Assembly: GCA_021737865.1 (NCBI GenBank)
Contig: JAIPDC010000010.1
Span: forward strand, 1-36,388
Direction of reading: 5' to 3'
DNA: 36,388 nucleotides
Source: Rhodoferax sp.
GTDB taxonomy: Bacteria; Pseudomonadota; Gammaproteobacteria; Burkholderiales; Burkholderiaceae_C
Under the pieces are notes generated by a model. It was not told where the DNA came from and did not search any database. It saw only the letters and a list, made by a program, of their open reading frames with translations. Numbering within the stretch: the stretch's first letter is position 1; every line of letters begins with the position of its first letter. Positions 2 through 27,727 of this stretch are shown here, piece after piece. Made by a program: the position numbers and the translations under genes.

Positions 2-1714
2 ATTTTTGGACACGGTTCAACCGATCTGGGCGAAGTGTTGCGCGTTTATTCAGAGTCGGGTGTGGTTCAGGTGTTCAATTTCCGAAATGAAGTGGAGATG
101 GCCCATGCCGGCACTGCCTTGGCCTGGGTGTATCAGGAAACCTGTGCGGTGGTGACCTCGATCGGTCCGGGCGCTCTGCAATCCTTGGCCGGTTCGCTGG
201 CGGCGGTGTCCAATGGTGTCGGGCTCTATCACATTTATGGCGACGAGACCACACACGGGGAAGGCTACAACATGCAGCAAATCCCCAAACCTCAGCAGCA
301 CTTGTTTGGCCAGATGACCGCGCTGATGGGCCAGTCTTATGTGCTGCACACCCCGCAGGCCTTGCGCGATGCGCTGCGCCGGGGCACACAGTGTGTGCAC
401 CATCCGAGCAAGGCCGGGCCGTTTTTCCTGTTGCTGCCGCTCAATACGCAGCCGCAGGTGATTGAGGACTTGAATCTGGTGGCCTTGCCGGAGCGGCTCC
501 GGCTGCCGCGCAGCGGTGTCGCCGATGACGCCGCTTTGAACCAGGCAGCCACGCTGCTGCGCCAGCACCCTCGCGTTGTGATGAAGGTGGGCGGTGGTGG
601 CCGCGCCTTTGCCGCTCAGGTGTGCGCGCTGGCTGAAGCCGTTGGTGCCGCCGTGGTGTTGTCGCCGGGCTCCTCCGGGGTGCTGCCCGATACCCATCCG
701 CAAAACATGCATGTCGGTGGCAGCAAGGGGTCCATCAGTGGAAACCATGCGATGGCGCAGGGGGAATTGCTGCTTGTAATCGGTTCTCGTGCGGTGTGTC
801 AGGCCGACTGCTCGGGCGTTGGCTATCCGAGGGTGAAAGCCGTCATCAATATCAACGCTGATCTGGCCGACGTGGCGCATTACAACGCCACACTGGCGTT
901 ATCTGGCGACATCGGGGCGGTCATCGGACAATTGCTGGGCGCCTTGTCCTCGCCTGACTCTCACCCCAAGGAGCGCCAGTCCTGGCTGGCTGAATGTGCT
1001 GCCGGCAAGGCGCAATGGAAGCAATTTCTGTCGTCCCGTCAGAATGCAACGCCCCTGGCAGACGAGGTCTGGCAACGCCCGGTGTTGTCGCAGCCGGCAG
1101 CCATCAAGGCGGTCTGCGACTTCGCCGCCACCATCAATGCCGTCAAGTTTTTTGACGCCGGTGATGTGCAGGCCAACGGGTTCCAGACGGTGGAAGATGT
1201 CCGGCCTTTTGACACCTATACGGAGACCGGTGCTTCCTATATGGGCTTCGCCACCTGCGCCGTCATTGCTGCCGGACTGGCCGACCAGCCCCGCTACAGC
1301 ATGGCGTTCACAGGCGATGGATCTTTCATGATGAACCCGCAGGCGCTGATCAGTGCCGTTGAGCACGGCGCCAAAGGAATGATCGTCATTTTCGACAACC
1401 GCCGGATGGCGGCGATCTCCAGCCTGCAGCACGCCCAGTACGGCGTCGACTTCCGCACCAACGACAGCGTGGCCGTGGACTATGTCCAGCTCGCGTCGAG
1501 CGTCGCCGGGGTCAAGGCGGTGTGGGCTGGCTACACCCTGGACACGCTGAAGGCTGCACTCCGGGACGCGAAAGACCATGACGGCCTGTCGGTGGTGCAT
1601 GTTCCGGTCTATGCCGGTACCGCGCCTGAAGGCGGCCTGGGCGCCTACGGTTCATGGAACGTTGGCAACTGGTGTGCCGATGTGCAACGCCGCTATGGCG
1701 CCAGCGATATTTAA
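2..1714 (+). CDS. IolD-like thiamine diphosphate-dependent enzyme (5' end outside window)
   Basis: The protein belongs to the acetolactate synthase/IolD superfamily of thiamine diphosphate (ThDP) enzymes. The frame is open from base 2 and already reads IFGHGSTDLGE before the first possible internal start (GTG at 35), so the true N-terminus lies upstream. The IFGHG block, the GPGA segment, the GDETTHGEG loop and the C-terminal YGSWNVG all resemble IolD, the inositol-pathway trihydroxycyclohexanedione hydrolase, more than acetolactate synthase. The cofactor motif is GDG at 1313-1321 with its Asn (FDN) about 28 residues later, and an N-terminal FRNEVEMAHAG carries the likely activating Glu. It is followed 19 bases later by an aldehyde dehydrogenase gene, which fits an enzyme that produces an aldehyde or semialdehyde. 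The substrate is unknown, and it is probably not IolD itself because no other iol gene is present. Confidence 0.8.
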   Translation: MFGHGSTDLGEVLRVYSESGVVQVFNFRNEVEMAHAGTALAWVYQETCAVVTSIGPGALQSLAGSLAAVSNGVGLYHIYGDETTHGEGYNMQQIPKPQQHLFGQMTALMGQSYVLHTPQALRDALRRGTQCVHHPSKAGPFFLLLPLNTQPQVIEDLNLVALPERLRLPRSGVADDAALNQAATLLRQHPRVVMKVGGGGRAFAAQVCALAEAVGAAVVLSPGSSGVLPDTHPQNMHVGGSKGSISGNHAMAQGELLLVIGSRAVCQADCSGVGYPRVKAVININADLADVAHYNATLALSGDIGAVIGQLLGALSSPDSHPKERQSWLAECAAGKAQWKQFLSSRQNATPLADEVWQRPVLSQPAAIKAVCDFAATINAVKFFDAGDVQANGFQTVEDVRPFDTYTETGASYMGFATCAVIAAGLADQPRYSMAFTGDGSFMMNPQALISAVEHGAKGMIVIFDNRRMAAISSLQHAQYGVDFRTNDSVAVDYVQLASSVAGVKAVWAGYTLDTLKAALRDAKDHDGLSVVHVPVYAGTAPEGGLGAYGSWNVGNWCADVQRRYGASDI

Positions 1715-1733
1715 AAATTCCGGATGACACAAC

Positions 1734-3200
1734 ATGAAACGTGAAAACTTTGGTCTGTACCGCGACTACGGTCTGTTTATCAACGGTCAGTGGCAACCCG
1801 CAAGCGAAGGCGGTGTGCGCGAGGTCATTGACCCGGCCAACGAGGAGGTGATCGGCTGGCTGCCAGCGGCTGGCAAAGACGATCTGGATGCCGCGCTGTC
1901 CGGTGCGCGGCAGGGCTTCGCCATCTGGCGGCGCACTTCGCCCTGGGAGCGGGCTGCTGTGCTGCGACGCACCGCCGGTCTGATTCGAAGCCGGGTGGAC
2001 GCAATGGCCCAATTGATGTCTGTCGAGACCGGCAAGCCGCTGGCGCAAGCGAAGGGCGAAATCTCGGATGCGGCCGACCAGTTTGAATGGTACGCAGGCG
2101 AGACTCAACGCCTTTACGGGCAGACCATGGAGGCTCGGTTACCTGAGGTGCGTATGCAGGTGCGCTATGAGCCGGTGGGCGTGGTCGCTGCCTTTTCGGC
2201 CTGGAATTTTCCGGCATTGCTGCCTTCGCGCAAAATCGCCGCGGCGCTGGCCGCCGGGTGTTCCGTGATCGCCAAACCGGCCAGCGAGGCGGCAGGCAGT
2301 TGTATGGCGATTGTGCAGGCCCTGCACGATGCCGGACTACCGGCTGGGGCGGTTAGCCTGGTCACGGGTGACTCGGCTTTCATTTCCGAGTACCTGGTGC
2401 GCTCTCCGATTGTGAACAAGGTCACGCTGACCGGCTCCACCGGGGTTGGCAAGCGTCTGTTGCACTTGGCAGCCGATGGCGTCAAGCGGGTCTCCATGGA
2501 ACTCGGCGGGCATGCGCCGGTGCTGGTGTTCGAGGATGCCGATGTGGCCTACGCCGCTGAACAGTGTGCCCGTTTCAAGTACCGCAACTGTGGTCAGGTG
2601 TGTGCCTCGCCGTCCCGGTTTTATGTGCACGAGAGCCTGTATGCGGCGTTTTGTGAACGCTTTGCCGCGATTGCCAACAGTCTGAAAGTGGGGCACGGGC
2701 TGGACCCGGAAACCGCGGTCGGCCCAATGGCAAATCGCCGTGGGCTGGACAACGCACACCGCTTGATCGACGACGCGCTCGCGCAAGGTGCCCGTCTGAT
2801 CGCGGGTGGCGGACGTCCCGCCGGCATCAGCGGCGACAAGGGTTACTTTCTGGCGCCAACGGCCTTGGCTGACGTGCCCAAAGAGGCCTTGATCATGCGG
2901 CAGGAGCCGTTCGCGCCGGTGGCGCCCATTGCGCCGTTTGCCTCTTTCGACGAGGCGATTCAGCTGGCCAACAGCACCCCTTATGGTCTTGCTTCCTACC
3001 TGTTCTCGAACTCGTTGAAAACGGCCACAATGGCCAGCGAGGCGATCGAGGCCGGCATGGTGGGAATCAATGAACTTGGTATTGCCAGTGCCGAAATGCC
3101 TTTTGGTGGCGTCAAGGAAAGTGGCATGGGCCGCGAAGGTGGTTCCCTGGGTATTCGTGATTATCTGGAGCCCAAATTCATCAAGACGCGCCTGCTGTGA
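1734..3200 (+). CDS. NAD(P)-dependent aldehyde dehydrogenase (semialdehyde type)
   Basis: A full-length aldehyde dehydrogenase of 488 residues that oxidises an aldehyde to the acid in the cytoplasm. The catalytic Asn lies in SAWNFP near residue 158, the general-base Glu in MELGGHAP near 256 and the nucleophile in GQVCASPSR is Cys290. The C-terminal PFGGVKESGMGREGG block is also typical. The overall pattern resembles the GabD/alpha-ketoglutaric semialdehyde group rather than betaine-aldehyde dehydrogenases, but the substrate cannot be fixed from sequence. The gene lies between a ThDP enzyme and a sugar-acid dehydratase, which suggests the terminal oxidation of a semialdehyde in the same pathway. 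Its stop is 56 bases before the most likely start of the dehydratase. Confidence 0.9.
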   Translation: MKRENFGLYRDYGLFINGQWQPASEGGVREVIDPANEEVIGWLPAAGKDDLDAALSGARQGFAIWRRTSPWERAAVLRRTAGLIRSRVDAMAQLMSVETGKPLAQAKGEISDAADQFEWYAGETQRLYGQTMEARLPEVRMQVRYEPVGVVAAFSAWNFPALLPSRKIAAALAAGCSVIAKPASEAAGSCMAIVQALHDAGLPAGAVSLVTGDSAFISEYLVRSPIVNKVTLTGSTGVGKRLLHLAADGVKRVSMELGGHAPVLVFEDADVAYAAEQCARFKYRNCGQVCASPSRFYVHESLYAAFCERFAAIANSLKVGHGLDPETAVGPMANRRGLDNAHRLIDDALAQGARLIAGGGRPAGISGDKGYFLAPTALADVPKEALIMRQEPFAPVAPIAPFASFDEAIQLANSTPYGLASYLFSNSLKTATMASEAIEAGMVGINELGIASAEMPFGGVKESGMGREGGSLGIRDYLEPKFIKTRLL

Positions 3201-3256
3201 CGCTATGGCAACCCAATGACGTCGAGGCTGGCGCAGCTCGAAAAAAAACAGGAGAT

Positions 3257-5005
3257 ATGACAGTGGAAGAAATCAATGAAGTTGGCATGGCGCGCGGCTT
3301 GACCAACTATGGTGACCGTGCGTTTGCACTTTATCTTCGACGCTCTTTCATCAAATCGATGGGTTACTCCGGGGACATTTTGAAGAAGCCGGTGGTGGGG
3401 ATTGCCTCCAGTCCGTCCGGATTCAACAACTGCCACCGGGCCATGCCCGAGCTGGTCGATGCGGTCAAGCGCGGGGTGCTGGCGGCCGGTGCCTTGCCGA
3501 TTGACTTCCCAACGATCTCCTTGGGCGAGGTTTTTCTGAACCCGACCAGCCTCATGTTCCGCAACCTGATGAGCATGGACGTGGAAGAAATGGTGCGCGC
3601 CCAGCCAATGGATTCGGTGGTCATGATCGGGGGCTGCGACAAAACCGTGCCGGCCCAGCTGATGGGCGCAGCCTCTGCTGATGTGCCTGCCATCCAACTT
3701 GTCACCGGCCCAATGATGACCGGGCGCCACAAGGGTGAGCGGCTGGGGGCCTGTACCGACTGTCGCCGTTTCTGGGGTAACTTTCGCGCAGGCAAGATCG
3801 AGCGTGAAGAGATTGATGTGGTGGAGAGCCGGTTGGCCACGACGGCAGGAACCTGTGCCGTGATGGGCACGGCCAGCACCATGGCCTGTATTGCCGAGGC
3901 CTTGGGCATGTCCTTGCCTGGCAGTGCTGCGATTCCAGCAGTCCATGCGGACCGGCTGCGTGCCGCGGAGGCCAGCGGCACGCTGGCGGCGCGCATGGCC
4001 CTGGGGCAGGTGCCAGTCGTGCGGCCCAGCGATGTGATCACGCCCAAATCGGTCGAGAACGCGCTGCGCGTGCTGCTGGCCCTGGGTGGCTCGACCAATG
4101 CCATCATCCACCTGACGGCGGTTGCTGGACGACTCAACATTCCGATTTCTCTGGCACGTCTGAATGAGTTGAGTGACACGACGCCCGTGTTGGTCAATCT
4201 GAAGCCTACCGGGGACAACTACATGGAGGACTTCTATGCAGCCGGCGGCATGAGCGCCCTGTTGCGGGAGTTGAAGCCTCTGTTGCACCTGGACACGGTC
4301 AGCGTCACAGGTGAAACCTTGGGTGAGCGGCTCGATGCTGAAGCCGATTCGTGGATTGACTCCAAAATCGTGCGGCCAGCCAGTGATCCGATCGAACCCG
4401 TGGGTGGTTTGGTTGCCTTGTTCGGTTCGCTCGCGCCGCGCGGCGCCATTCTGAAGCGATCAGCGGCCGACAAGAACTTGTTCGAGAAGGAAGGCCGCGT
4501 CGTGCTGTTCACCTCACTGGAGGATTTAAGCGCCCGTATCGACGACCCGGATCTGGATGTGACAGCGGATGACATCCTGGTGTTGCAAAATGCCGGCCCG
4601 ACCAGTCGAAGCGGCATGCCCGAGGCCGGCTATTTGCCGATCCCGAAAAAGCTGGCGCAGGCCGGGGTGAAAGACATGGTGCGGATCTCGGATGCGCGCA
4701 TGAGCGGCACCGCGTTCGGAACCATCGTGCTGCATGTCGCGCCAGAGGCGGCGGCAGGCGGCCCGCTGGCACTGGTCCAGAACGGCGACCGGATCCGGCT
4801 CAGCGTGAAGCATCGCAGCCTCGATCTACTCGTAGATGAAGCCGAGTTGGCACGCCGGCGCCTGGTTCTGCCATCCACGTTGCCGCACATTCCGCGCGGC
4901 TACGCCAAGTTGTACCAAGACCATGTGTTGCAGGCGGATGCAGGCTGCGACTTCGATTTCTTGCGCGCAGCCGCGCAACCCCAGGACCAAGCGAGAGGAG
5001 CGTAG
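3257..5005 (+). CDS. IlvD/Edd-family dehydratase, probably for a sugar acid
   Basis: An iron-sulfur dehydratase that removes water from a 2,3-dihydroxy acid to give a 2-keto-3-deoxy acid. Cysteines likely to hold the cluster are in GGCDKTVPA, GACTDC and TAGTCAVMGTAS; the ISDARMSGTAFG block near the C-terminus is a family hallmark. The C-terminal pattern (GYAKLYQDHVLQADAG.DFDFL) resembles pentonate dehydratases such as L-arabinonate dehydratase more than the isoleucine-valine enzyme. The frame is open from 3197, but ATG 3257 follows AGGAG at 3250-3254 by 2 bases; GTG 3263 with an 8-base spacer is an equally good start. No branched-chain amino acid genes are nearby, so a catabolic role with the upstream aldehyde dehydrogenase is inferred. 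Confidence 0.88.
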   Translation: MTVEEINEVGMARGLTNYGDRAFALYLRRSFIKSMGYSGDILKKPVVGIASSPSGFNNCHRAMPELVDAVKRGVLAAGALPIDFPTISLGEVFLNPTSLMFRNLMSMDVEEMVRAQPMDSVVMIGGCDKTVPAQLMGAASADVPAIQLVTGPMMTGRHKGERLGACTDCRRFWGNFRAGKIEREEIDVVESRLATTAGTCAVMGTASTMACIAEALGMSLPGSAAIPAVHADRLRAAEASGTLAARMALGQVPVVRPSDVITPKSVENALRVLLALGGSTNAIIHLTAVAGRLNIPISLARLNELSDTTPVLVNLKPTGDNYMEDFYAAGGMSALLRELKPLLHLDTVSVTGETLGERLDAEADSWIDSKIVRPASDPIEPVGGLVALFGSLAPRGAILKRSAADKNLFEKEGRVVLFTSLEDLSARIDDPDLDVTADDILVLQNAGPTSRSGMPEAGYLPIPKKLAQAGVKDMVRISDARMSGTAFGTIVLHVAPEAAAGGPLALVQNGDRIRLSVKHRSLDLLVDEAELARRRLVLPSTLPHIPRGYAKLYQDHVLQADAGCDFDFLRAAAQPQDQARGA

Positions 5006-5006
5006 G

Positions 5007-5495
5007 ATGAAAGTGCGAGACATCATTCAATCCAAGAGCCGCCCTCCTTTAACGGTACACCCTCAAACGCTGCTTTCGCAATGCGTGATCAGCATGGCCG
5101 ACGAGGACCTGGGCTCATTGGTCGTGATGGATGGCCCCACGGTGGCCGGCATATTGACCTTCCGCGAAGTGATCCTGGTGTTGGCGCAGCGCCAGAAAGA
5201 ACTGCGCATCGGACCGACGCCACCTGTCGCCGAACTCAAGGTATGCGATGTCATGAACTCGAATCCGGTTTGCACCGCGCCCGATGTCGAGCTGCATGAC
5301 CTGCGCGCTCTGATGATCAGCCATCACCAGCGTTACCTGCCGGTGCTGGACAACGGCGTGTTGATCGGTGTGTTGTCGTTCCACGATGTTGCACGCAGCG
5401 TGTTTGAGGAGAAGGAGTTTGAGAACCGCATGCTGAAGAGCTATATCAGTGACTGGCCGACTGCGGATACCCCGGTGTCGTCGGGAAAAGCCTGA
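5007..5495 (+). CDS. Protein with two CBS domains
   Basis: A 162-residue protein made almost entirely of a CBS-domain pair, roughly residues 3-60 and 75-135, with the typical V.DVM...P.....V.L.D.R.LM......LPV.D....IGV.S..D pattern in the second repeat. CBS pairs bind adenine nucleotides (AMP, ATP, SAM) and act as energy or ligand sensors; there is no catalytic domain here. The gene starts one base after the dehydratase stop, at ATG 5007, with GAGAGGAG at 4993-5000, and ends 12 bases before the XdhC gene, so it is embedded in the operon. A regulatory role over one of the operon enzymes is possible but nothing in the sequence says which. Confidence 0.85.
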   Translation: MKVRDIIQSKSRPPLTVHPQTLLSQCVISMADEDLGSLVVMDGPTVAGILTFREVILVLAQRQKELRIGPTPPVAELKVCDVMNSNPVCTAPDVELHDLRALMISHHQRYLPVLDNGVLIGVLSFHDVARSVFEEKEFENRMLKSYISDWPTADTPVSSGKA

Positions 5496-5507
5496 AGAGG
5501 TGACTTT

Positions 5508-6524
5508 TTGGAAAGCCTTGATCTTCGGGTGTTGGCTGACGCGCTTGCTTGGCATCGCAGCGGTCATGCGGTTAATTTGGTGACGGTGGTGCAAACTTGG
5601 GGTAGTGCGCCGCGGCCACCAGGCGCTTTGCTGGCTATACGCGAGGACGGCGTGGTGAGCGGTTCTGTGTCTGGAGGCTGCGTCGAAGACGATCTGATCG
5701 CCCGCACAAAGGCCCGCTTTCAAGTGGTTGATGGCACTGATGTCACTTTGGATAAGCCTGCCATGATCGTCTATGGTGTCAGCCGGGAAGAAGCCTCACG
5801 CTTTGGCCTGCCGTGTGGTGGCACCCTGCGCTTGGTGCAGGAACCCTTGCTTGACACCGACTGGGTGACTCATTTGCTGGCATGCACCGCCGATCACCAA
5901 CTGGTGGCGCGCACGCTGACCTTGGCGACCGGCGCTGTGCAACTCTCCAAAGCCGATCGTGGTCAAGCGATATGTTTTGATGGCGCCACCTTGACCACGG
6001 TGTTTGGCCCCAAGTGGCGCCTGCTGCTCATTGGCGCTGGGCAGTTATCGCAAGCGGTCGCGCAGATGGCCACCTTGGTTGATTTCGAAGTTCTGGTTTG
6101 CGATCCGCGTGAAGAATATGCTGCGATGCTTGTGGCTGGCATGCCGGGTATCCAACGAATCGAAGGCATGCCTGATGACGTCGTTCGCGAACTGGTGCCA
6201 GATGCCCACACGGCCATCGTGGCCCTGACCCATGACCCAAAACTCGACGATATGGCTTTGCTCGAAGCGCTGAAATCCAATGCCTTTTACGTCGGCGCTT
6301 TGGGCTCGCGGCGCAACCAGGAAACACGCAAGCGGCGACTGGCTGAACACTTTGAGTTAAGCTTTGAGGAACTGGGTCGCCTTCATGGTCCGGTGGGTTT
6401 GGCGTTGCGCGCAAAAACACCAGCCGAGATTGCGGTCTCCATAGTGGCCGAGATCGTGCAAGTAAAAAACGAGACTGCTGCTTTTACGTTGATGTCCCCT
6501 CTGCAAGGTTACGTGCCGCTTTGA
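5508..6524 (+). CDS. XdhC/CoxI-family molybdenum hydroxylase maturation protein
   Basis: 338 residues with both parts of the family: an N-terminal XdhC/CoxI domain with GSVSGGCVEDDL near residues 51-62 and a C-terminal Rossmann domain starting at LLLIGAGQLSQ. Family members bind the molybdenum cofactor, help add its terminal sulfido ligand and insert it into xanthine dehydrogenase-type enzymes. The start is TTG 5508, supported by AAGAGG at 5495-5500 with a 7-base spacer. The 3' end overlaps the next gene by four bases (TTGA), a translational-coupling arrangement. The client molybdoenzyme is not in this window and probably lies upstream of base 1. Confidence 0.88.
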   Translation: MESLDLRVLADALAWHRSGHAVNLVTVVQTWGSAPRPPGALLAIREDGVVSGSVSGGCVEDDLIARTKARFQVVDGTDVTLDKPAMIVYGVSREEASRFGLPCGGTLRLVQEPLLDTDWVTHLLACTADHQLVARTLTLATGAVQLSKADRGQAICFDGATLTTVFGPKWRLLLIGAGQLSQAVAQMATLVDFEVLVCDPREEYAAMLVAGMPGIQRIEGMPDDVVRELVPDAHTAIVALTHDPKLDDMALLEALKSNAFYVGALGSRRNQETRKRRLAEHFELSFEELGRLHGPVGLALRAKTPAEIAVSIVAEIVQVKNETAAFTLMSPLQGYVPL

Positions 6525-7066
6525 ATTTGCCCACTGTCATCATTCTGGCCTCAGGACGCGGGGAGCGTTTTACGGCATCGGGTGGCAGCACCCACAAATT
6601 GCAGGCCCAGTTGGCGGGTAAGACGGTTCTACAGCGTACCTTAGATGCCGTTCGCGGCAGTGGCCTGGCATGGCATCTTGAGGAGGGTAGTCACCGCGGT
6701 ATGGGTGACTCGATAGCAGCGGCGGTGCACAAAACATCTCAAGCCAAAGGCTGGCTGATCCTGCCAGCGGATTTGCCACTCATTCAAAGTGACACCCTCT
6801 GTGCGATTGCGGCTGCACTGAAGGGACATGACGTGGTCGTGCCGGTATACCTCGGACGACGTGGTCATCCAGTCGCTTTTTCTTCTGTTTGTCGTCAAGC
6901 ACTTCTGAACTTGAAAGGAGACCGGGGAGCAGTTTTCGTCGTACGCGCGCATGAAGCTTTGGAGTTGGCCACGGAAGATATCGGTTGTGTTGCCGATATT
7001 GACACTGTCGATGACCTCCATATCGCAGAGGATCTGTTGCGCAAAATGGGGGTCTCAGCCAAATGA
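6521..7066 (+). CDS. MobA-like nucleotidyltransferase (MocA type)
   Basis: A 181-residue nucleotidyltransferase of the MobA/MocA fold. The N-terminal ILASGRGERF...GGSTHKL is a variant of the LAxGxSxRxGxxK nucleotide-binding loop, and LPADLPLI carries the metal-binding Asp. MocA enzymes convert molybdopterin cofactor to the cytosine dinucleotide form used by xanthine dehydrogenase-family enzymes, which matches the coupled XdhC gene. The start is TTG 6521, overlapping the xdhC stop; the second TTG at 6527 cannot be excluded. It is the last gene of the operon. The LAAG alanine is replaced by Ser (LASG), a tolerated change. Confidence 0.85.
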   Translation: MNLPTVIILASGRGERFTASGGSTHKLQAQLAGKTVLQRTLDAVRGSGLAWHLEEGSHRGMGDSIAAAVHKTSQAKGWLILPADLPLIQSDTLCAIAAALKGHDVVVPVYLGRRGHPVAFSSVCRQALLNLKGDRGAVFVVRAHEALELATEDIGCVADIDTVDDLHIAEDLLRKMGVSAK

Positions 7067-8976: not shown

Positions 8977-9198
8977 TTACCGGCCCGGGCGGTCACAGTT
9001 CTCCACTTCGAGCACAGGCACGCGCACGAATTCCGACATGTTGTTCGTCACCAGCACCAAGCCTTCGCTGCGTGCGTGGCCGGCAATGTGCAGGTCATTC
9101 ACTCCGATGGGTTGGCCGAGTTTTTCCGGGGCGGCACGGATGGCGCCGTAGTGGTTTACCTTGATTCCAAGCGTATCGGATAAGCTCTGCGGACGAAC
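8977..9198 (-). pseudogene. VapC-type PIN-domain toxin, 3' remnant
   Basis: The minus strand reads NHYGAIRAAPEKLGQPIG, then VNDLHIAGHARSEGLVLVTNN and EFVRVPVLEVEN, which is the C-terminal half of a VapC ribonuclease toxin, including the ND and TNN acidic-site neighbourhood. A stop (TGA) lies in frame just upstream of 9198, so the N-terminal half with the first catalytic Asp is lost. The usual terminal Trp codon after EN is Cys (TGT) and the frame then reads five extra residues to TAA at 8977-8979. No VapB antitoxin gene was found beside it. It is a relic of a toxin-antitoxin module. Confidence 0.75.
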
Positions 9199-9239
9199 TC
9201 AGCGCCCCAAAAGCGCCCCTGAACGATAACGATCAATCC

Positions 9240-10076
9240 ATGCATCACGAAACGATCACAGCAGACGATGGAGAGCAACTTCACGTCCACCTGTCGGGGA
9301 GCGGGATCCCCATCTTGCTGATGCATGGCTGGACCGCCAACCATGCCGCCTGGTCGCCCCTGGTGGCGCCGCTGTCACAGCACTATCGTCTGCTGCGCCC
9401 GGATGCGCGCGGTCATGGAGGCCACCCGCTCACCGTGAATCACGAGCCTGATGTCAAGCGGCTCGCGCGTGACATCATCAATCTGCTTGACCATTTTGAG
9501 ATCGAACGTATTGCCGCCGTCGGGCATTCGATGGGTGCGCTGACACTGTGGCAATGCATCCGGGATTTCGGTGGGGAGCGTTTTTCTCACCTTGCCTTCA
9601 TCGACCAATCACCCAAATTGATGACCGACGACATGTGGCACATGGGCATCTATGGTGATTTCGACAGCGCCCGTGCGCAGCGATTCATCGACGACCTGGA
9701 CGCTGACTTTGTCGAAGCGGTGCTGCGTTTGATCGCCTTCGGGCTCAACGACAAGGCGCGTGAGACCTATCTGCGCAACTCATCGGGTTGGCGTGCGGCG
9801 CGCGAAGCCCTGCGCAACATCAACCCGCATTCAGCCATCGCCATCTGGAGGAGCCTGGTTGCCGGCGACTACCGCGATGTGCTGGCGACCATTGATGCCC
9901 CCACTTTGCTTGCCTATGGGACGTCAAGCAACTTCTACCCCAGGGAGGCAGCACAATTTGTGGCGTCCCGCATACCGAAGGCACGTTTGAGCTTTTACGA
10001 AGGCGCTGATCACGGTCCACATCTCCTCCAACCGGATCGATTTGCTGGTGAACTCATTGCATTGCTCAATGGATAA
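9240..10076 (+). CDS. Alpha/beta-fold hydrolase
   Basis: A 278-residue cytoplasmic hydrolase of the chloroperoxidase/RsbQ-like branch. The oxyanion-hole motif HGWTANHAAW is near residues 29-38, the nucleophile elbow GHSMG has Ser97, and the catalytic His is His258 in GADHGPHL. After strand 6, where the acid residue normally sits, the sequence is APTLLAYGTSSNFYP with no Asp or Glu, so the acid may come from another position. The start is ATG 9240 with no strong ribosome-binding site. It is transcribed alone, 41 bases after the VapC remnant. Substrate unknown. Confidence 0.85.
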   Translation: MHHETITADDGEQLHVHLSGSGIPILLMHGWTANHAAWSPLVAPLSQHYRLLRPDARGHGGHPLTVNHEPDVKRLARDIINLLDHFEIERIAAVGHSMGALTLWQCIRDFGGERFSHLAFIDQSPKLMTDDMWHMGIYGDFDSARAQRFIDDLDADFVEAVLRLIAFGLNDKARETYLRNSSGWRAAREALRNINPHSAIAIWRSLVAGDYRDVLATIDAPTLLAYGTSSNFYPREAAQFVASRIPKARLSFYEGADHGPHLLQPDRFAGELIALLNG

Positions 10077-10227
10077 GGCGGGGCTTTGGCTTTCGTAGGG
10101 ACAATTGACACCCCAAGACAACGCCCCGATGGCCACGGTCCCCGCGCCGGATGCGCCAGACTGAACTTCCTATAAACTGCTGCAACCATGCGCGACGTTG
10201 GCTCGCAGCTGTGCACCAGAGTGACTC

Positions 10228-11166
10228 ATGCGAAACAACACCAAACGCGGCATTTTCTATCTTGCCCTGGGTGTCTTTGTGTTCTCCCTGCAGGACGCCA
10301 TCATCAAGCAAGTCAGCGGCTCTTATGCGCTGACAGAGGTGGTCTTCATTCGATCGCTGGTTGCCATACCGATACTGCTGTTAATCGTCCAGCGCGAAGT
10401 GGGCTGGCGCGCCATTTTTCCGCCGCAGTTGTGGCCGTTGATGCTGCGTTCAGCCATTCTTTTCATGTCCTACATCGCCTATTACATGGCGTTCCCGGCC
10501 CTGCCGCTGGCCGATGCGGTCGCGCTGTACTTTACCGTTCCCTTGTTCGTGGCGGCGCTGGCGGGCCCGTTTCTGCACGAGCGCTCCGACCGCAGGGTTT
10601 GGCTGGCGGTGCTGGTGGGTTTTCTCGGGGTGATGGTCATGCTGCAGCCGAGTCGGCGTGTTTTTGAGCCCGCTGCCATGCTCTCCCTGCTGGCGGCAGC
10701 CGCCTACGGTTTCTCGATGCTGATGGCGCGCAAGCTGGGAAGCACCCAGTCCACAGGCGTGATGGTCTTTCACCAGAATCTCATGTTCCTGGCGGGTTCC
10801 GTGGCAACCGCCCTGGTCCTGGGGAGCCTGGGCATTGTCGATGCCGCCCACCCGAGCTTGTCCTTTCTGGTTCGCCCCTGGGTCTGGCCGACGGCCTACG
10901 ACGCCTTTCTGATGTGCGCCTGCGGCCTCATCTCAACACTTGGCATGATGCTGCTCACCAGCGCCTATCATGTGGCCAAGGCGAGTTCTGTCGCGCCCTT
11001 CGAATACACCGGAATCATGTGGGCGCCGTTGTGGGGCTTCTTGTTCTTCAACGAGACGCCGCGCCTGACAACACTGCTGGGGGCGGTGCTGATCGTCGGC
11101 GCGGGGCTGGTGGCCCTGCGCACAAACAGAACAGAAAACCCGGCCGCCCCGGTGGCAGGGCATTGA
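10228..11166 (+). CDS. EamA/DMT-family transporter
   Basis: A 312-residue inner-membrane protein with about ten hydrophobic segments arranged as two repeats of the EamA domain, the first from about residue 8 and the second from about residue 150. Members of the drug/metabolite transporter superfamily export amino acids, metabolites or drugs; the substrate here is not predictable. The 151-base gap from the alpha/beta hydrolase suggests its own promoter. The gene is convergent with the LysR gene, with only 9 bases between the stops. Confidence 0.88.
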   Translation: MRNNTKRGIFYLALGVFVFSLQDAIIKQVSGSYALTEVVFIRSLVAIPILLLIVQREVGWRAIFPPQLWPLMLRSAILFMSYIAYYMAFPALPLADAVALYFTVPLFVAALAGPFLHERSDRRVWLAVLVGFLGVMVMLQPSRRVFEPAAMLSLLAAAAYGFSMLMARKLGSTQSTGVMVFHQNLMFLAGSVATALVLGSLGIVDAAHPSLSFLVRPWVWPTAYDAFLMCACGLISTLGMMLLTSAYHVAKASSVAPFEYTGIMWAPLWGFLFFNETPRLTTLLGAVLIVGAGLVALRTNRTENPAAPVAGH

Positions 11167-11175
11167 CTGTCATCA

Positions 11176-12042
11176 TCAGTCAACACAAGCCAGCCCCTGA
11201 ACGTTTTCGATCAACTGCTCTTCCAGCAACAGGACAGCATGGGGCGGCGTGCCGCTGGCCCGGTGCAATGCAATCTCGATCTCCGGAAGGGGCGGCAACT
11301 TTTCCTCCGGCCCCAAAATCCTCCACCCCGAAGGCACCATGCTCTGGGCGACGACAGTCACCGCCAGCCCCCCGGACACGGCCAGCGCGCCCCCCACAAA
11401 GCTCTGGCTGCAATACGCGACTCGCCAAGCTCGCCCCTGCGCTTCGAGTGCGGCCAATGCATGGCCACGAAATACGCAGCCATCGGGAAAAAGCGCGAGT
11501 GGCAGCGTGGCTTCTGCATGCGCCAGATGGTGCCGCGATCCTACCCATACCAAGCGCTCCCGGCGCAGCGTCTTACCGAGTCGGCGATTGGGCTGGCGCG
11601 TGATGATTGCAATGTCCAAATTGCCGGCCTCGACCCGGTCAAGCAGTTCTCCGCTCAGCGCGCCAAAGACCTCAAGTTGCACCCTTGGATAAGCATGAGA
11701 GAAGCGCGTCAAAACGCCTGGTAAAAAGAACCGTGCGTAGTCGTCTGGCATACCAAGCCTGACGTGACCTTCGGCGAAAGCCTGATTCATTGCAAATAGG
11801 GCTTCTTCGTTCAAGCGGATCATGCGGCGCGCGTAGCCCAGAAGAACTTCACCTGCCTCGGTCAGCTTGATTTGACGATTTTCGCGCTGCAGCAGCTGCT
11901 GACCCGTCATGTCCTCCAGCTTGCGCAATTGCATGCTCACTGCTGACTGTGTTCGACAAAGATAGTGTGCGGCGCGCGTAAAACTCCCGCTGTCCACGAC
12001 TGCGGCAAAGGCCTGCAAAAGAGTGACATCAAAGTATTTCAG
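11176..12042 (-). CDS. LysR-family transcriptional regulator, probable CTG start
   Basis: A LysR regulator: N-terminal winged helix-turn-helix (SGSFTRAAHYLCRTQSAVSMQLRKLE would be the DNA-binding helices, seen in pieces SGSFTRAA and QSAVSMQLRKLE) and a C-terminal effector-binding domain. The first ATG/GTG/TTG in frame is TTG 12018, which would remove the start of the first helix. CTG at 12042-12040 gives LKYFDVTLLQAFAAV, matching the usual LysR N-terminus, and has AAGGA at 12053-12049 with a 6-base spacer, so CTG is taken as the start (288 residues). It is divergent from a solute-binding-protein gene, with paired palindromes in between, and probably controls that gene and itself. Confidence 0.85.
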   Translation of the reverse strand: MKYFDVTLLQAFAAVVDSGSFTRAAHYLCRTQSAVSMQLRKLEDMTGQQLLQRENRQIKLTEAGEVLLGYARRMIRLNEEALFAMNQAFAEGHVRLGMPDDYARFFLPGVLTRFSHAYPRVQLEVFGALSGELLDRVEAGNLDIAIITRQPNRRLGKTLRRERLVWVGSRHHLAHAEATLPLALFPDGCVFRGHALAALEAQGRAWRVAYCSQSFVGGALAVSGGLAVTVVAQSMVPSGWRILGPEEKLPPLPEIEIALHRASGTPPHAVLLLEEQLIENVQGLACVD

Positions 12043-12053
12043 ATCAGTTCCTT

Positions 12054-12094
12054 CATCACGTTTCGTGATGCAAACGATAACAAAAATTCGTTTG
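12054..12094. promoter_or_regulatory. Two adjacent palindromes, probable LysR operator
   Basis: Two perfect inverted repeats stand side by side between the LysR gene and the divergent binding-protein gene: CATCACG-TTT-CGTGATG at 12054-12070 and CAAACGA-(10 bases)-TCGTTTG at 12071-12094. LysR regulators commonly bind a recognition site and a second activation site nearby; this layout fits. The first palindrome abuts the regulator's own ribosome-binding site, which would allow autorepression. Confidence 0.55.
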
Positions 12095-12120
12095 CTTTGA
12101 AATAGACCACATCCTACAGT
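12091..12120 (+). promoter_or_regulatory. Candidate promoter of the solute-binding-protein gene
   Basis: TTTGCT at 12091-12096 and TACAGT at 12115-12120 are separated by 18 bases and could serve as -35 and -10 boxes. The weak -35 overlaps the arm of the second palindrome, as expected for a LysR-activated promoter. This is a pattern match only. Confidence 0.25.
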
Positions 12121-12196
12121 CTAGCCGCCCAGGTACCAACCAAGAAGTACTTCCCCGGATGATCCGGAATTTTCAACTTTGTAAGAGACATGAAAA

Positions 12197-13765
12197 ATGA
12201 CAAATACTGAAACTAAATCGAAATCCGGAATCATTCTGGACCGCAGACAATTGATCTCCGGTGCGACCGCGCTCGGGCTATCTGCAGCCTTCGGCGCCAT
12301 GCCAGCCATGGCCCAGGAAGCGCAAAAGAAAGGCGGCACCCTTAAGTTGGGTATGGAAGGCGGCTCTGCCTCCGACAGTCTGGACCCACGCACCTACGCA
12401 GATGCCATTCCGCGCGTTTGCAGTCTGATGTTCTGGAACCAACTGGTCGAGATCGATGCCAAAGGCGATGCGACTCCCGAACTGGCCGAAAGTTGGGAAG
12501 CCAAGCCCGGCGCGGCTGAATGGATCTTCAATATTCGCAAGGGCATCACCTTTACCTCCGGAAAGACGCTCGACGCAGACGACGTCATCTTCTCGCTCAA
12601 CCTCCACCGGGGCGAGACCAGCTCGCCGGCAAAGGGATTGCTCGCACAGATCACAGATATCACGAAACTTTCTGCAAACCAGATTTCCGTCAGGCTGTCA
12701 GGCGGCAACGCGGACCTGCCCTATGTTTTTACCGACTACCACCTGATGATCGTTCCAAACGGCACCAAGGACTTCTCCAAGCCCGACGGAACTGGCGCTT
12801 TCACGCTGGTTGAGTGGCAGCCCGGCGTGCGCGTGGTAGCCAAACGCAAGCCCGGCACCTACTGGAAGCCCGGCCGCGGCAATTTCGACACGGTTGAGTT
12901 GCGCTATATCCTGGACGCTACTGCACGCACCCAGGCGATCATGACGGGGCAGGTCGACGCGATCAACAAGCTTGACCCGAAGACTGCAACCCTAGTGGCC
13001 AAGGCGCCCAACGTCGCCGTGGTTCGCACCAAGGCTGCGGGCAATCGATACAGCTTTGTCGCACACCGGGACAGAGACCCCTACGCCAACAACGATCTGA
13101 TGCTGGGACTGAAGTACGGCATCGACCGCCAGAAGATCATCGACACCGTGTTTGGCGGATTCGCCTCTCTGGGAAATGATCACTTGATTGGATCCACCCT
13201 GAAGTATTACGACGCCAGCCAACCCCAGCGGCCTTACGACCCGGACAAGGCGGCATTTCACTTCAAGAAAGCAGGGGTCAGGACTCCCTTGGAGCTGTTG
13301 GTATCCGAAGGCGCATACACCGGCGCCACGGATGCGGGCGTGTTGTTTCAGGAGTCCCTGAGAAGGACCGGCACCGCGCTCGAAGTGAAGCGTGTCTCGG
13401 GCGATGGCTATTGGGACAATGTCTGGCTGAAGCAACCGTTCTCTGCCGTCTACTGGAGCCCCCGCCCGACGGTAGACATGCAGATTTCAACCACCTTTAT
13501 TTCGGACGCTGCGTGGAATGACACGCGCTGGAAGCGTCCCGCCTTCGACAAGCTGGTGATTGCGGCCAGGGCCGAACTTGACGACCTCAAGCGGCGCAAG
13601 ATGTACGCGGATGCACAGCGCCTGGTGAGCGATGACGGCGGCATGATCTGTTTTGCCGTGGGTGATTTTCTGGACGCCCACTCCAAGAAGCTGCACGGAT
13701 TGGCCCCTCATCCTCGCTTCGACCTGAACGATAACCGTCTTCCTGAAAAAGGCTGGTTTGCCTGA
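12197..13765 (+). CDS. Dpp/Opp-type ABC transporter solute-binding protein (copy 1)
   Basis: A 522-residue periplasmic binding protein of family 5 (peptide/nickel type). The leader has a twin-Arg DRRQLISG, then a hydrophobic stretch and a cleavage-like AMPAMAQ near residue 40, suggesting Tat or Sec export. The mature part has the family features (GGTLKLGMEGG, a DADDVIFSLN block, GTGAFTLVEWQPG). It is clearly a paralogue of the protein encoded at 18693-20267: both share the leader pattern LGLSA.FGAMPAMAQ, the GYWDNVWLK.PF.AVYW block and the terminal EKGWFA. No permease or ATPase is beside it; it may use the importer encoded at 15090-18522. It is divergent from the LysR gene. Confidence 0.9.
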   Translation: MTNTETKSKSGIILDRRQLISGATALGLSAAFGAMPAMAQEAQKKGGTLKLGMEGGSASDSLDPRTYADAIPRVCSLMFWNQLVEIDAKGDATPELAESWEAKPGAAEWIFNIRKGITFTSGKTLDADDVIFSLNLHRGETSSPAKGLLAQITDITKLSANQISVRLSGGNADLPYVFTDYHLMIVPNGTKDFSKPDGTGAFTLVEWQPGVRVVAKRKPGTYWKPGRGNFDTVELRYILDATARTQAIMTGQVDAINKLDPKTATLVAKAPNVAVVRTKAAGNRYSFVAHRDRDPYANNDLMLGLKYGIDRQKIIDTVFGGFASLGNDHLIGSTLKYYDASQPQRPYDPDKAAFHFKKAGVRTPLELLVSEGAYTGATDAGVLFQESLRRTGTALEVKRVSGDGYWDNVWLKQPFSAVYWSPRPTVDMQISTTFISDAAWNDTRWKRPAFDKLVIAARAELDDLKRRKMYADAQRLVSDDGGMICFAVGDFLDAHSKKLHGLAPHPRFDLNDNRLPEKGWFA

Positions 13766-13791
13766 CCACTGTCCACTTAATCAGCATGTTT

Positions 13792-13814
13792 TCCCGGGCG
13801 TTTTTGGCCCGGGA
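13792..13814 (+). other. Intercistronic hairpin
   Basis: TCCCGGGC and GCCCGGGA form an 8-base-pair stem around a 7-base loop (GTTTTTG). It lies between the binding-protein stop and the AGGAG of the next gene, without a T-tract, so it is more likely an mRNA-stabilising or processing element than a terminator. Confidence 0.4.
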
Positions 13815-13828
13815 CAGGAGAAATTATT

Positions 13829-14767
13829 TTGAAAATCGGTTTCATTGGACTTGGCAACATGGGAAGAGCTGCCGCCCGCAATATCCTGCGCGCGGGCTTC
13901 GCTCTAACTGTCCACGACATCAACAAGAGTGCCGCAGATCCGTTGCTGGCAGAAGGGGCTCTCTGGGCGGATACGCCCGCGAGCTTGTTGGATCAGGTCG
14001 ACATCGTGGTATCGATGGTTTTCGGACCCCCGCAGATCGAGCAGGTCGTGCGCGGCACGAACGGATTGCTGGCCACAAGCTGCAAGGGAAAGGGCTGGAT
14101 TGACATGACGACCAGCAGCCCCATGCTGATGCGGGAACTCGCCAGCGAATTTGAAAGCGCGGGCGGACTGCCGGTCGACTCGCCCGTCACAGGGTCTGTC
14201 GATTCGGCCATTCGCGGCGACATGATCCTGTTTGTCGGAGGAACAGATGCGGCGATAGCCTTCGCTAAACCAGTTCTTGAAGTTGTTGGGGTCATCCGGC
14301 TGGTAGGACGGTATGGCAATGGCTACGTAGCCAAACTGGTGAACAACCAGTTGTGGTTCATCCACGCCGCGGCGATTGGAGAGGCCATGGTGGCGGCCAA
14401 GAAGGCGGGGCTGGAACCCGAAGTCTGGTGGGCTGCGATGAAGGGCGGAGCGGCTGAGAGCTTTGTCATGCAACACGACGTCCCCTCCATTTTTGCCGGT
14501 CACTACGACCCATCTTTCCGCCTGGAGTTGTGCCTGAAAGATCTGGCCCTGATTGATGAGTTGCTGAAGTTCATGGGCACTCGCCAGGAAATCACTGGTG
14601 CAACTTATGCGCGTTTTCGCGAGGCCGCCCAGCGCTACGGCGTCGGCGCCGGAGAAATGACCGTCTGCAAGGTGATAGAGGACGATGCCGGAGTTGCGCT
14701 TCGCGTGGCGGGCGACTGGACGCCACCGTGGGAAGTCAAGCACCCCGATGAGGCCCAAACAGCATGA
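13829..14767 (+). CDS. NAD(P)-dependent beta-hydroxyacid dehydrogenase
   Basis: A 312-residue member of the 3-hydroxyisobutyrate/tartronate-semialdehyde dehydrogenase family. The Rossmann motif GLGNMG is at residues 7-12, the substrate-binding segment is DSPVTGSVDSA and the catalytic Lys is in KLVNNQL. It reversibly oxidises a 3-hydroxy acid to the semialdehyde or keto acid; some relatives are imine reductases. The start is TTG 13829 with AGGAG at 13816-13820 and an 8-base spacer. Its stop overlaps the ATG of a degraded second copy. The C-terminal extension after VIEDDAG is longer than in 3-hydroxyisobutyrate dehydrogenase. Co-transcription with the binding protein suggests the imported compound or a derivative is the substrate. 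Confidence 0.85.
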   Translation: MKIGFIGLGNMGRAAARNILRAGFALTVHDINKSAADPLLAEGALWADTPASLLDQVDIVVSMVFGPPQIEQVVRGTNGLLATSCKGKGWIDMTTSSPMLMRELASEFESAGGLPVDSPVTGSVDSAIRGDMILFVGGTDAAIAFAKPVLEVVGVIRLVGRYGNGYVAKLVNNQLWFIHAAAIGEAMVAAKKAGLEPEVWWAAMKGGAAESFVMQHDVPSIFAGHYDPSFRLELCLKDLALIDELLKFMGTRQEITGATYARFREAAQRYGVGAGEMTVCKVIEDDAGVALRVAGDWTPPWEVKHPDEAQTA

Positions 14768-20663: not shown

Positions 20664-21446
20664 TCAAGCGCCGCGCCAAAGCGGCGGACGCTTTTCACTG
20701 AAGGCGCGCGGCCCTTCTTTCGCGTCTTCGGAGGTGAGCATGGCCCGGTAAGTGGGCAAGGACGCTGATCGCAGCGTGCGGTAGGCCGTCTCGATATCCT
20801 GGTGGCTGGTGGCGCGCAAAACCTCCTTGACCGCAGCCACCGCCAAGGGCGCGTTCATCGCGATCTGCGCGGCCATCTCCATCGCGCATGACATGAGTTG
20901 ATCGGCCGGGACCAGCTGGTTGACCAGGCCCCAGCGCAGGGCCTCTTCGGCCCCCATGCGCCGACCCGTGAACAACATTTCGGTGGCCAGCGCGCGCGGC
21001 AAGCGGCGCGGCAAGCGCAAGACACCACCCGAGTCGGGAATCATGCCCAGCTTCACCTCGGGCAGCGCAAACTCGGCTTGCGGGCTGGCAACCATCAGGT
21101 CCGCGGCAAGCGCCAGTTCAAAACCACCCCCCATGGCCAGGCCATTGACCGCGGCAATCACCGGCTTGCTCAGGGCAAAAAATTCTGTCAGGCCCGCGAA
21201 GCCGCCAGGGCCGTGGTCGGCGTCCACCGCCTCACCTTCGACGGCACCCGTCAGGTCCCACCCAGCCGAAAAGAACCGTCCCACCCCGGTCACAATGCCG
21301 ACCCTCAGCGCAGCGTCGTCCTGAAGCCGCGCAAACGCGGCGTACAGGGCCCGGCTGGTGCTCACGTTGATGGCGTTGGCCTTGGGCCGGTCCAGTGTGA
21401 TGGTCAGGACACTGCCCGTGACGGACATTCGCACCGCGTCGTTCAT
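20664..21446 (-). CDS. caiD: Crotonobetainyl-CoA hydratase (CaiD-like)
   Basis: A 260-residue crotonase-fold enzyme. Recalled E. coli CaiD matches it closely along its length: [17 protein letters not shown], the [17 protein letters not shown] loop, [38 protein letters not shown] and the ending FAEKR.P.W-type tail ([12 protein letters not shown] here). The [10 protein letters not shown] insert is specific to CaiD rather than general enoyl-CoA hydratases. It adds water to crotonobetainyl-CoA to give L-carnitinyl-CoA. The start ATG 21446 has GAAGGA with a 7-base spacer and lies 3 bases after the synthetase stop. It is the last gene of the catabolic operon. The gene symbol rests on recalled similarity, not on a search. 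Confidence 0.87.
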
Positions 21447-21449
21447 GTT

Positions 21450-23531: not shown

Positions 23532-24692
23532 CTAGGCACCCTGGGCACGCAACATGGCGCGCGAAATAATGTGCCGCTGGATTTCACTCGTGCCGTCCCA
23601 GATGCGCTCCACCCGGGCATCACGCCAAAAGCGCTCAATTGGCAAACTCTCCATCAGGCCCATGCCGCCAAAGATTTGCAGCGTCTGGTCGGTGATCCGC
23701 GCCAGGGTTTCAGAGGCAAACAATTTGGCCATGGCGGCATCGGAGTCGGTCATTCGGCCCTGGTCACATTTCCACGCCGCTTGCAGTGTGAGCAGTTCAG
23801 CGGCTTCGAGTTCGGTGGCCATGTCGGCGAGCTTGAAGCCCGTGCCCTGAAAGCGCCCGATCGGCTGGCCAAACTGCTGCCGGGTGGCCGCCCACTGCGT
23901 GGCCATATCAAGCACGCGGCGACCCCGCCCAACGCTGGTGGCGGCCACGGTCAGGCGCGTCGCGCCCAACCATTCACCCATCAAGTCAAAGCCCCGCCCC
24001 TCCTCGCCCAAACGCTTGCGCACGGACACGCGGCAGTCGTCAAAAAAAAGCTCACTCTGGTGGTAGCCGCGGTGCGACACACAGGGTGGTCCCCGCCGCA
24101 CCGTGAGGCCCGGACTGTTCATGTCCACGAGAAAACCGGTGATCTTCTTCTTGGGCCCGCTTCGGGTCTCCTCCACGCCTGTCGCCGCAAACAGGATCAC
24201 AAAGTCGGACATGTCGGCATGGCTGATGAAGTGCTTGGTGCCGTTGATCACATAGTCATCCCCCTGGCGCGCGGCGCGCGTCTGCATGCCGCGCACGTCG
24301 GAGCCGGCGTTGGGTTCCGTCATGGCCAGACAGTCGTGGCGCTCACCCCGGATGGTGGGCAGCAGGTACTCTTCGATCTGATCACCCGTGCAGCCACGCA
24401 AAATATTGCTGGGGCGCGCCACCAGCATTTGCAGGCCATACGAGGCCCTGCCAAGCTCACGCTCCAGCAAGGTGATGCCCAGATTGTCCAAGCCCCCGCC
24501 GCCCAGGGCTTCTGGCATGTTGGCGGCGTAAAGACCCACCTCGATGGCCTTGGCCTGGATCTGCGCCGCAAGGTCTGGCGGAATCGCGTCGGTGCGCTCA
24601 ACAAGGTCTTCATGAGGGTACAGCTCGGTCTCAACAAAAGAGCGGACCGTGTCGACAATCATGGTTTGTTCGTGGCTGAGTTCAAAATGCAT
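23532..24692 (-). CDS. Acyl-CoA dehydrogenase, likely gamma-butyrobetainyl-CoA dehydrogenase
   Basis: A 386-residue FAD-dependent acyl-CoA dehydrogenase. AMTEPNAGSDVRG and the FISHADMSDF strand form the flavin and substrate site; ATRQQFGQPIGRFQG and QIFGGMGLMES are family blocks in the C-terminal helices. At the position of the usual catalytic Glu (IWEGTSEIQ) it has Asp366 (IWDGTSEIQR). The frame is open to 24947, but the family N-terminus starts at MHFELSHEQ, so ATG 24692 is used, 25 bases after the thioesterase stop. It would form the 2,3 double bond that the CaiD-like hydratase then hydrates. Electrons should go to an electron-transfer flavoprotein encoded elsewhere. Confidence 0.88.
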   Translation of the reverse strand: MHFELSHEQTMIVDTVRSFVETELYPHEDLVERTDAIPPDLAAQIQAKAIEVGLYAANMPEALGGGGLDNLGITLLERELGRASYGLQMLVARPSNILRGCTGDQIEEYLLPTIRGERHDCLAMTEPNAGSDVRGMQTRAARQGDDYVINGTKHFISHADMSDFVILFAATGVEETRSGPKKKITGFLVDMNSPGLTVRRGPPCVSHRGYHQSELFFDDCRVSVRKRLGEEGRGFDLMGEWLGATRLTVAATSVGRGRRVLDMATQWAATRQQFGQPIGRFQGTGFKLADMATELEAAELLTLQAAWKCDQGRMTDSDAAMAKLFASETLARITDQTLQIFGGMGLMESLPIERFWRDARVERIWDGTSEIQRHIISRAMLRAQGA

Positions 24693-24717
24693 AAGGACGC
24701 TTCCGGATGATGGCCGC

Positions 24718-25293: not shown

Positions 25294-25795
25294 GGGGGGT
25301 GACAAGTTTGGGTGGCGCCAGCGCAATGGAGCGGCCGGCATAACTTGGCCGGGGCAGCGCGAGGTGCGGCTGCGCCAAGGCGCGCAGTCGCTCCCCCGCC
25401 TGCGCTGCAAAGGGAGCGGACCGCGCCCGCGCGGAGTCAATATTGATCAGCATCTGCTCATTGGCGGCCAGCAGCGCAGCGCCGCCCTGAAGGTACAAGC
25501 CGTGGCAGAGATGCAGCCGTTTGGCATCCAACCCCACGATGTGGGTGAACACCTCCACGTCCGCACCCTCCTTGACTTCCAGCAAGTAGCTCAGGTGGGT
25601 TTCGAGCGTGTACAGGGTGTGCCCGGTCGTTTGGCGGCCCTGCGCGTCCATGCCGATCAAGTCCATCAGGCCGTCACTTGCAAAACTGAAAATCACCATG
25701 TAGTAGGCGTCGCGCAGATGGCCGTTGTAGTCCACCCAGTCATGCGCCACCTTGCCGCGCCATGTGCACAGCGGCTCTTTCACCGGGCTACTCAT
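25286..25795 (-). CDS. cdhB: Betainyl-CoA thioesterase (CdhB-like)
   Basis: A 169-residue hotdog thioesterase with [13 protein letters not shown] (Asp22, His26) and [20 protein letters not shown], the pattern I recall for Pseudomonas CdhB, which hydrolyses glycine betainyl-CoA to glycine betaine and CoA. The start ATG 25795 lies 8 bases inside the carnitine dehydrogenase gene and its stop overlaps the next thioesterase by 8 bases. It is clearly different from that neighbour (WVDYNGHM and longer leader), so the pair is not a recent duplication. The assignment rests on recalled similarity and context. Confidence 0.8.
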
Positions 25796-26753: not shown

Positions 26754-26787
26754 GGAGGCTCCTTCAAGGGGTTCGATGTCAGAATTC

Positions 26788-27675: not shown

Positions 27676-27727
27676 GTTCTTTTCCTTCAAAAAATGGGCT
27701 GGCTTTTCTGCCTGAAAGTGTTTGAAA

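Follow-up and report, generated by a model that had tools for sequence, protein, structure and literature searches.

A conserved gene cassette built around a ThDP-dependent enzyme sister to IolD, possibly for the breakdown of a cyclitol-like compound

The six genes that open contig JAIPDC010000010.1 of a Rhodoferax sp. assembly (GCA_021737865.1) raise the question of which pathway could bring together a thiamine diphosphate (ThDP)-dependent enzyme, a semialdehyde-type dehydrogenase, an IlvD/Edd dehydratase, a CBS-domain pair and maturation factors for a molybdenum enzyme. The contig was analyzed entire, over its 36,388 nucleotides (hereafter, the window), and belongs to a metagenome-assembled genome of 259 contigs that is 79% complete. 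Our answer, which as a whole scheme we hold tentatively and at somewhat less than an even chance, is that positions 2-7066 hold the 3′ portion of a conserved cassette with which bacteria break down a polyhydroxylated compound, probably one resembling a cyclitol. As a sequence-only reading of this DNA had proposed, six open reading frames (ORFs) are present in the region, near-contiguous and all on the forward strand, and they match the expected families:

2..1714, + strand: IolD-sister ThDP-dependent enzyme, 5′ truncated (TPP enzyme N, M and C domains; placed by tree)
1734..3200, + strand: aldehyde dehydrogenase (ALDH) of the succinic semialdehyde dehydrogenase (SSADH)/α-ketoglutaric semialdehyde (KGSA) dehydrogenase type (Aldedh; both carboxylate-binding Arg positions kept)
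3197..5005, + strand: IlvD/Edd [2Fe-2S] dehydratase, PRK06131 subfamily (ILVD_EDD_N/C)
5007..5495, + strand: stand-alone CBS-domain pair (two CBS domains)
5508..6524, + strand: XdhC-family maturation factor for a molybdenum hydroxylase (XdhC_CoxI and XdhC_C)
6521..7066, + strand: MocA/YgfJ-like molybdenum cofactor nucleotidyltransferase (NTP_transf_3, nearest to MocA/YgfJ)

The recurrence of these genes in other bacteria was analyzed. A scan of bacterial genomes yielded 80 relatives of the window ThDP protein, and seven plasmid records (three annotated) gave more; all ORFs of 87 loci were clustered to obtain a neighbourhood map. The genes for ThDP enzyme, ALDH and IlvD recur in the same order in Alpha- and Betaproteobacteria, including the SAR11 strain HIMB114. 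When only the 58 fully flanked loci are considered (with 7 kb or more of upstream and 4.5 kb or more of downstream sequence), an oxidative front end is present in 57. It consists of a molybdenum hydroxylase in 31 loci, 29 of them with a zinc alcohol dehydrogenase (ZnDH), and of a Gfo/Idh dehydrogenase in 33, seven loci having both. The exception, locus L015, carries a different NAD(P) oxidoreductase and genes of a tripartite ATP-independent periplasmic (TRAP) transporter. ALDH and IlvD are found together in 39/58. The clustering of the 87 loci resolves three types of cassette: type A, with ZnDH and a molybdenum hydroxylase of the xanthine dehydrogenase (XDH) type, mostly along with a tripartite tricarboxylate transporter (TTT); type B, with a Gfo/Idh/MocA dehydrogenase, mostly along with an ATP-binding cassette (ABC) sugar transporter and in a few instances with an IolE-like TIM barrel; and type C, from anaerobes, which is described below. 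Gene content, conservation and the modular front ends can thus be read directly from the loci compared. Being the order of ThDP, ALDH and IlvD genes also seen in complete replicons and in isolates of several classes, we reject chance adjacency or an assembly artefact, which the fragmented state of the source genome might have suggested and to which we attach a negligible probability.

The relatives also supply what the window lacks. The contig starts inside the ThDP gene, so that about 66 N-terminal codons, relative to locus L024, are missing at the assembly break, and a search of the source assembly for the ZnDH and the molybdenum-binding (Mo) subunit of L024 gave only distant paralogues. Reading upstream of base 1 was hence not possible in the window itself, and was so in its relatives. 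All seven close relatives (L023, L024, L026, L027, L028, L029 and L031) are type A. In four of them (L023, L024, L026 and L031; 74–85% ThDP identity), ZnDH, a FAD subunit and two Mo subunits directly precede ThDP-ALDH-IlvD, and TctC, TctB and TctA are often located upstream of ThDP as well. Both the molybdenum hydroxylase that had been predicted to act in the same pathway and the upstream transporter are accordingly encountered. A complete arrangement is that of Phaeobacter piscinae: IclR, ZnDH, the FAD subunit, two Mo subunits, TctC, TctB, TctA and ThDP, followed by ALDH, IlvD, a transhydrogenase, a BLUF gene and XdhC. Carriers available in culture include P. piscinae S26, Rhodovulum marinum DSM 18063, Afipia sp. 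1NLS2 and HIMB114. That a conserved cassette with a molybdenum hydroxylase exists in the relatives is near certain, and comparison with the closest of them makes the genes at 2-7066 very probably part of a type A cassette.

The layout of the six genes is compact. The ThDP stop (1714) is followed by the ALDH ATG at 1734; the ALDH stop (3200) overlaps the IlvD GTG at 3197, an ATG at 3257 being the likelier IlvD start when compared with L024. The IlvD stop (5005) precedes the CBS ATG at 5007, the CBS stop (5495) precedes the XdhC TTG at 5508, and the XdhC stop (6524) overlaps the MocA-like start at 6521. No sigma-70-like promoter site was found inside the six-gene run, which is consistent with a single transcript, albeit not proof of it.

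The ThDP enzyme is central to any interpretation of the cassette. The window protein is 61–85% identical to the members of its family. In a tree including IolD and other ThDP enzymes from the host genomes, this family is the sister clade of IolD (support 1.0) and is separate from acetolactate-synthase-type enzymes; it is as a sister clade that the earlier description of an IolD-like enzyme holds. The motifs GHG and RNE are kept in 83/86 and 80/86 sequences, and IFGHG, SIGPGA and DNR...LQ are common to the family and IolD. Against the IolD model TIGR04377 the window protein reaches 165 bits (cut-off 715), true IolD proteins scoring 786–950 bits, which indicates that the family lies outside IolD and is not IolD itself. 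IolD, or 3D-(3,5/4)-trihydroxycyclohexane-1,2-dione hydrolase, belongs to the myo-inositol pathway and likewise has dehydrogenase and ALDH-family partners. Ordinary inositol (iol) catabolism would be suggested by this kinship and by the weak similarity of the cassette Gfo/Idh and ZnDH proteins to IolG and IolM. Nevertheless, the partners differ (ZnDH and a molybdenum hydroxylase, or Gfo/Idh alone), and IolB, IolC and IolJ were not recognized among the recurrent neighbour families of the 87 loci. Moreover, true IolD is encoded at another locus in 15 of 30 host genomes, which makes myo-inositol an unlikely substrate of the cassette in those hosts. Taking into account these coexisting genes and the model score, we reject canonical inositol catabolism, whose probability we consider very low. 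A second known enzyme of interest is cyclohexane-1,2-dione hydrolase (CDH; PDB 2PGN/4D5E), which also depends on ThDP, converts a cyclic 1,2-dione by hydrolysis into an omega-oxo acid, and was detected for the window protein both by profile search and by fold search. It shares about 21% identity in the structural alignment, a match no better than that of acetolactate synthases, and its natural substrate is not polyhydroxylated.

The two enzymes encoded next point to the product of the ThDP reaction. The window ALDH scores 482 bits with the SSADH subfamily model TIGR01780, below its cut-off of 646. The motifs WNFPxxxP(A/S)RK and RNxGQVC are present in 42/42 family sequences, and the same 42 retain the equivalents of R213 and R334 of human SSADH. 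These two arginines bind the carboxylate of succinic semialdehyde (PMC10599462, PMC11681614), and their retention implies a substrate that is an aldehyde with an acid end, in accordance with the semialdehyde-type dehydrogenase announced by the sequence-only reading. By analogy with what has been proposed for sulfolactaldehyde dehydrogenase, the same pair could bind a sulfonate. The window IlvD protein scores 811 bits with PRK06131 (cut-off 539) and 660 bits with the L-arabinonate dehydratase model PRK13016, below the equivalog cut-off of 882; its cluster and active-site motifs are conserved in the family (GGCDK and RMSG in 51/51, FNxCH in 47/51). IlvD homologues outside the cassette occur in varied contexts, which do not fix a substrate.

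The closest solved relatives of these two proteins include KGSA dehydrogenase and L-arabinonate dehydratase, i.e., the dehydrogenase and dehydratase families of the Weimberg or oxidative L-arabinose pathway, and a related SSADH-IlvD pair belongs to a different sugar-acid operon in Bosea. A Weimberg-like pentose or pentonate route could then be envisaged, with ALDH as KGSA dehydrogenase, IlvD as pentonate dehydratase, and the ThDP and molybdenum genes serving a separate, co-regulated route. Yet the second dehydratase of that pathway, for 2-keto-3-deoxypentonate, was seen in no cassette (the FAH family was not searched), a ThDP enzyme and a molybdenum hydroxylase are present, and ThDP, ALDH and IlvD remain side by side even in distant lineages. 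The genome of HIMB114 is informative in this respect. It encodes one protein of the dihydrodipicolinate synthase (DHDPS) family, most likely DapA to judge from its score, and one HpaI/GarL-like aldolase, far from the cassette; KDPG/KHG aldolase was not found. Such a set speaks against a Weimberg end of the DHDPS type and agrees with a 2-keto-3-deoxy (di)acid being split by an aldolase. We regard the Weimberg-like route as improbable: the "pentonate" and "Weimberg" labels attached earlier to the locus are right at the level of protein families, not for the pathway.

The cassettes of anaerobes provide a second view of the same intermediate. Type C was found in Clostridia, Spirochaetes, one actinobacterial bin and one deltaproteobacterial bin; it has either front end, and ALDH and IlvD are replaced by PRK09273, annotated as "hypothetical protein" (RpiB/LacAB family, PF02502) and located close to ThDP in L091, L093, L095, L097, L098 and L100. 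Three loci (L091, L093 and L098) also carry a split transketolase. When approximately 390 genomes from the same class as the Faecalicatena host were sampled for more anaerobic cassettes, that host alone was found. PRK09273 is a candidate uronate-type isomerase, considering that DhuI, a uronate isomerase also assigned to PF02502, has the same function as KduI, a member of the KduI/IolB family (PMC12838403); the isomerase of type C is in this way functionally close to the KduI/IolB family, a point in common with the IolD system. Sulfoquinovose breakdown by the sulfo-TK pathway (SqwGH, SqwI) also employs a split transketolase together with an isomerase of PF02502, the substrate being a sugar with an acid end (PMC9594981). 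In the type C cassettes a two-subunit transketolase is likewise combined with a PF02502 isomerase for an unphosphorylated acid-ended sugar, whereas sulfoquinovose genes are not recognized in them, and they have an IolD-like enzyme and a front-end oxidase instead. Since ALDH plus IlvD and isomerase plus transketolase are interchangeable downstream of ThDP, and since both sets suit an aldehydo-acid, we read the ThDP product as an aldehydo-acid.

From these data we infer an order of reactions, a dicarbonyl cleavage and an aldehydo-acid product. The substrate would enter through the TTT transporter and be oxidized by ZnDH and the XDH-type molybdenum hydroxylase, a task that in sister cassettes one Gfo/Idh/MocA dehydrogenase and an ABC sugar transporter would accomplish. 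The IolD-sister enzyme would then hydrolytically cleave a vicinal dicarbonyl, probably derived from a cyclitol, to a uronate-like aldehydo-acid, whose aldehyde group the SSADH-type ALDH would oxidize. IlvD/Edd would dehydrate the resulting α,β-dihydroxy acid to a 2-keto-3-deoxy acid, which an HpaI/GarL-type aldolase encoded elsewhere in the genome could split; the L024 genome, like that of HIMB114, encodes such an aldolase, and its participation is our inference. In anaerobes, the DhuI/RpiB-family isomerase would act on the aldehydo-acid and transketolase would strip off C2 units. No kinase step would be needed along the whole route.

Several observations weigh against this scheme. Unrelated ThDP enzymes of the source genome reach 200 bits on the IolD model, so that kinship to IolD rests on the tree and not on the score of 165. 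A fold search with the predicted structure of the window ThDP protein (pLDDT 89) ranks acetolactate synthases, glyoxylate carboligase and CDH alike. Most type B cassettes are devoid of an IolE-like dehydratase, which leaves formation of the 1,2-dione unexplained in them, and oxidation of carbinols is not known for molybdenum hydroxylases of the XDH type. The aldolase of the source genome is only distantly HpaI-like. The roles of all the cassette enzymes are predicted ones. Finally, TTT transporters usually carry carboxylates, as do TRAP transporters such as that of L015, and such a preference agrees equally with a sugar acid and with a cyclitol. The substrate-binding proteins do not decide the matter: when compared with solved structures, the ABC types match AcbH-like or ribose-binding-like proteins and TctC matches Bug/TctC, and the ligand is not discriminated.

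A linear sugar-acid or aldarate could accordingly be imported by TTT and oxidized by ZnDH to a 2-keto acid; the ThDP enzyme, acting as a decarboxylase or lyase, would shorten this to an aldehydo-acid, on which ALDH and IlvD would act. The carboxylate-binding residues of ALDH and the IlvD family would fit, decarboxylases are common among ThDP relatives, and the transketolase and PF02502 isomerase of type C also suit linear acids. Such a route, however, gives no clear role to the molybdenum hydroxylase, does not explain how ABC-imported neutral sugars would yield the same intermediate after one Gfo/Idh oxidation, and has to accommodate an enzyme sister to IolD, a ring-opening hydrolase. We consider it unlikely, while being the most serious competitor. 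Cleavage of a cyclic dione is preferred over linear decarboxylation because IolD-type hydrolysis of a cyclic 1,2-dione gives an aldehydo-acid from a neutral ring.

The molybdenum hydroxylase of the relatives has the FAD, 2Fe-2S and MoCoBD domains of the XDH family, the glutamate motif GxKGIGE(P) of the active site in its Mo subunit, and XdhC and MocA-like companions; the closest solved relatives of the Mo subunit are aldehyde oxidoreductase, 4-hydroxybenzoyl-CoA reductase and xanthine dehydrogenase. It differs from the family in that, in most proteobacterial loci, one gene unites the 2Fe-2S domain with the first Mo-binding part, the second such part having a gene of its own, and in being linked to ThDP, ALDH and IlvD rather than to purine genes. 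ZnDH is conserved at 65–85% identity. In L024, an XdhC gene 77% identical to that of the window directly follows IlvD and is followed by a MocA-like gene (61%); the window counterparts of these two proteins would prepare the cofactor of the cassette hydroxylase. CBS homologues follow IlvD in L023 (63%) and L027 (57%). In the close relatives compared, the CBS gene noticed earlier is an accessory that may or may not be present. Two Thermus plasmid loci (L148 and L149, both at 8989-11440) contain an operon with a ZnDH orthologue (62% to L024), a CBS protein and a TIM barrel, c16 (about 53% to L024), adjoining TTT, class II aldolase, Tm-1-like and creatininase genes, while nearby ThDP and molybdenum genes are absent; ZnDH, CBS, c16 and TTT seem to form a recurrent module in its own right.

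Other loci depart from the three types. In L036, L043, L046, L047 and L062, from Afipia/Pseudolabrys-like alphaproteobacteria, ZnDH, molybdenum hydroxylase and ThDP occur with no ALDH or IlvD; most of them add an alpha/beta hydrolase, a 4-pyridoxolactonase-like protein or Gfo/Idh, and they adjoin amidohydrolase, cyclase, 3HCDH and short-chain dehydrogenase/reductase (SDR) genes. They may be one more variant of the cassette or belong to a pathway next to it. In Pseudovibrio denitrificans JCM 12308 (L101, 9830-14859), ThDP and IlvD each appear to be split into two overlapping ORFs, through frameshifts or draft-assembly errors. In the window itself, positions 9240-14767 downstream of the operon encode an alpha/beta hydrolase, an EamA transporter, a family 5 solute-binding protein and a 3-hydroxyisobutyrate-dehydrogenase-like protein. 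A separate cluster at 20664-32080, probably another catabolic operon, comprises genes for enoyl-CoA hydratase, ADP-forming CoA ligase, acyl-CoA dehydrogenase, thioesterase and 3-hydroxyacyl-CoA dehydrogenase, as well as BKACE, class II aldolase, major facilitator superfamily (MFS) transporter and hydantoinase-like genes.

The sequence-only reading knew of no described pathway for such a combination. The literature searched likewise contained no account of these genes together, which is weak evidence since most subscription journals fall outside that search; the cassette is apparently an undescribed combination of familiar enzyme families. In its most extended form, which we put forward as doubtful, the proposal is of a widespread kinase-free cyclitol route in which molybdenum hydroxylase and ZnDH make a vicinal dione and a new IolD-sister ThDP hydrolase opens the ring, the aldehydo-acid being oxidized and dehydrated in aerobes, a SAR11 strain among them, or isomerized and processed by transketolase in gut clostridia and spirochaetes. 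The cassette would give a function to a ThDP family, to a molybdenum hydroxylase subfamily, to the PRK09273 isomerase and to a ZnDH conserved at 70–75% identity between Burkholderiales and Clostridia. Its carriers range from a SAR11 strain whose genome spans 1.2 Mb to freshwater Burkholderiales, marine roseobacters, rhizobia and gut clostridia; a pathway kept by such varied bacteria probably has as its substrate a compound common in the environment or the diet, the breakdown of which has not yet been assigned.

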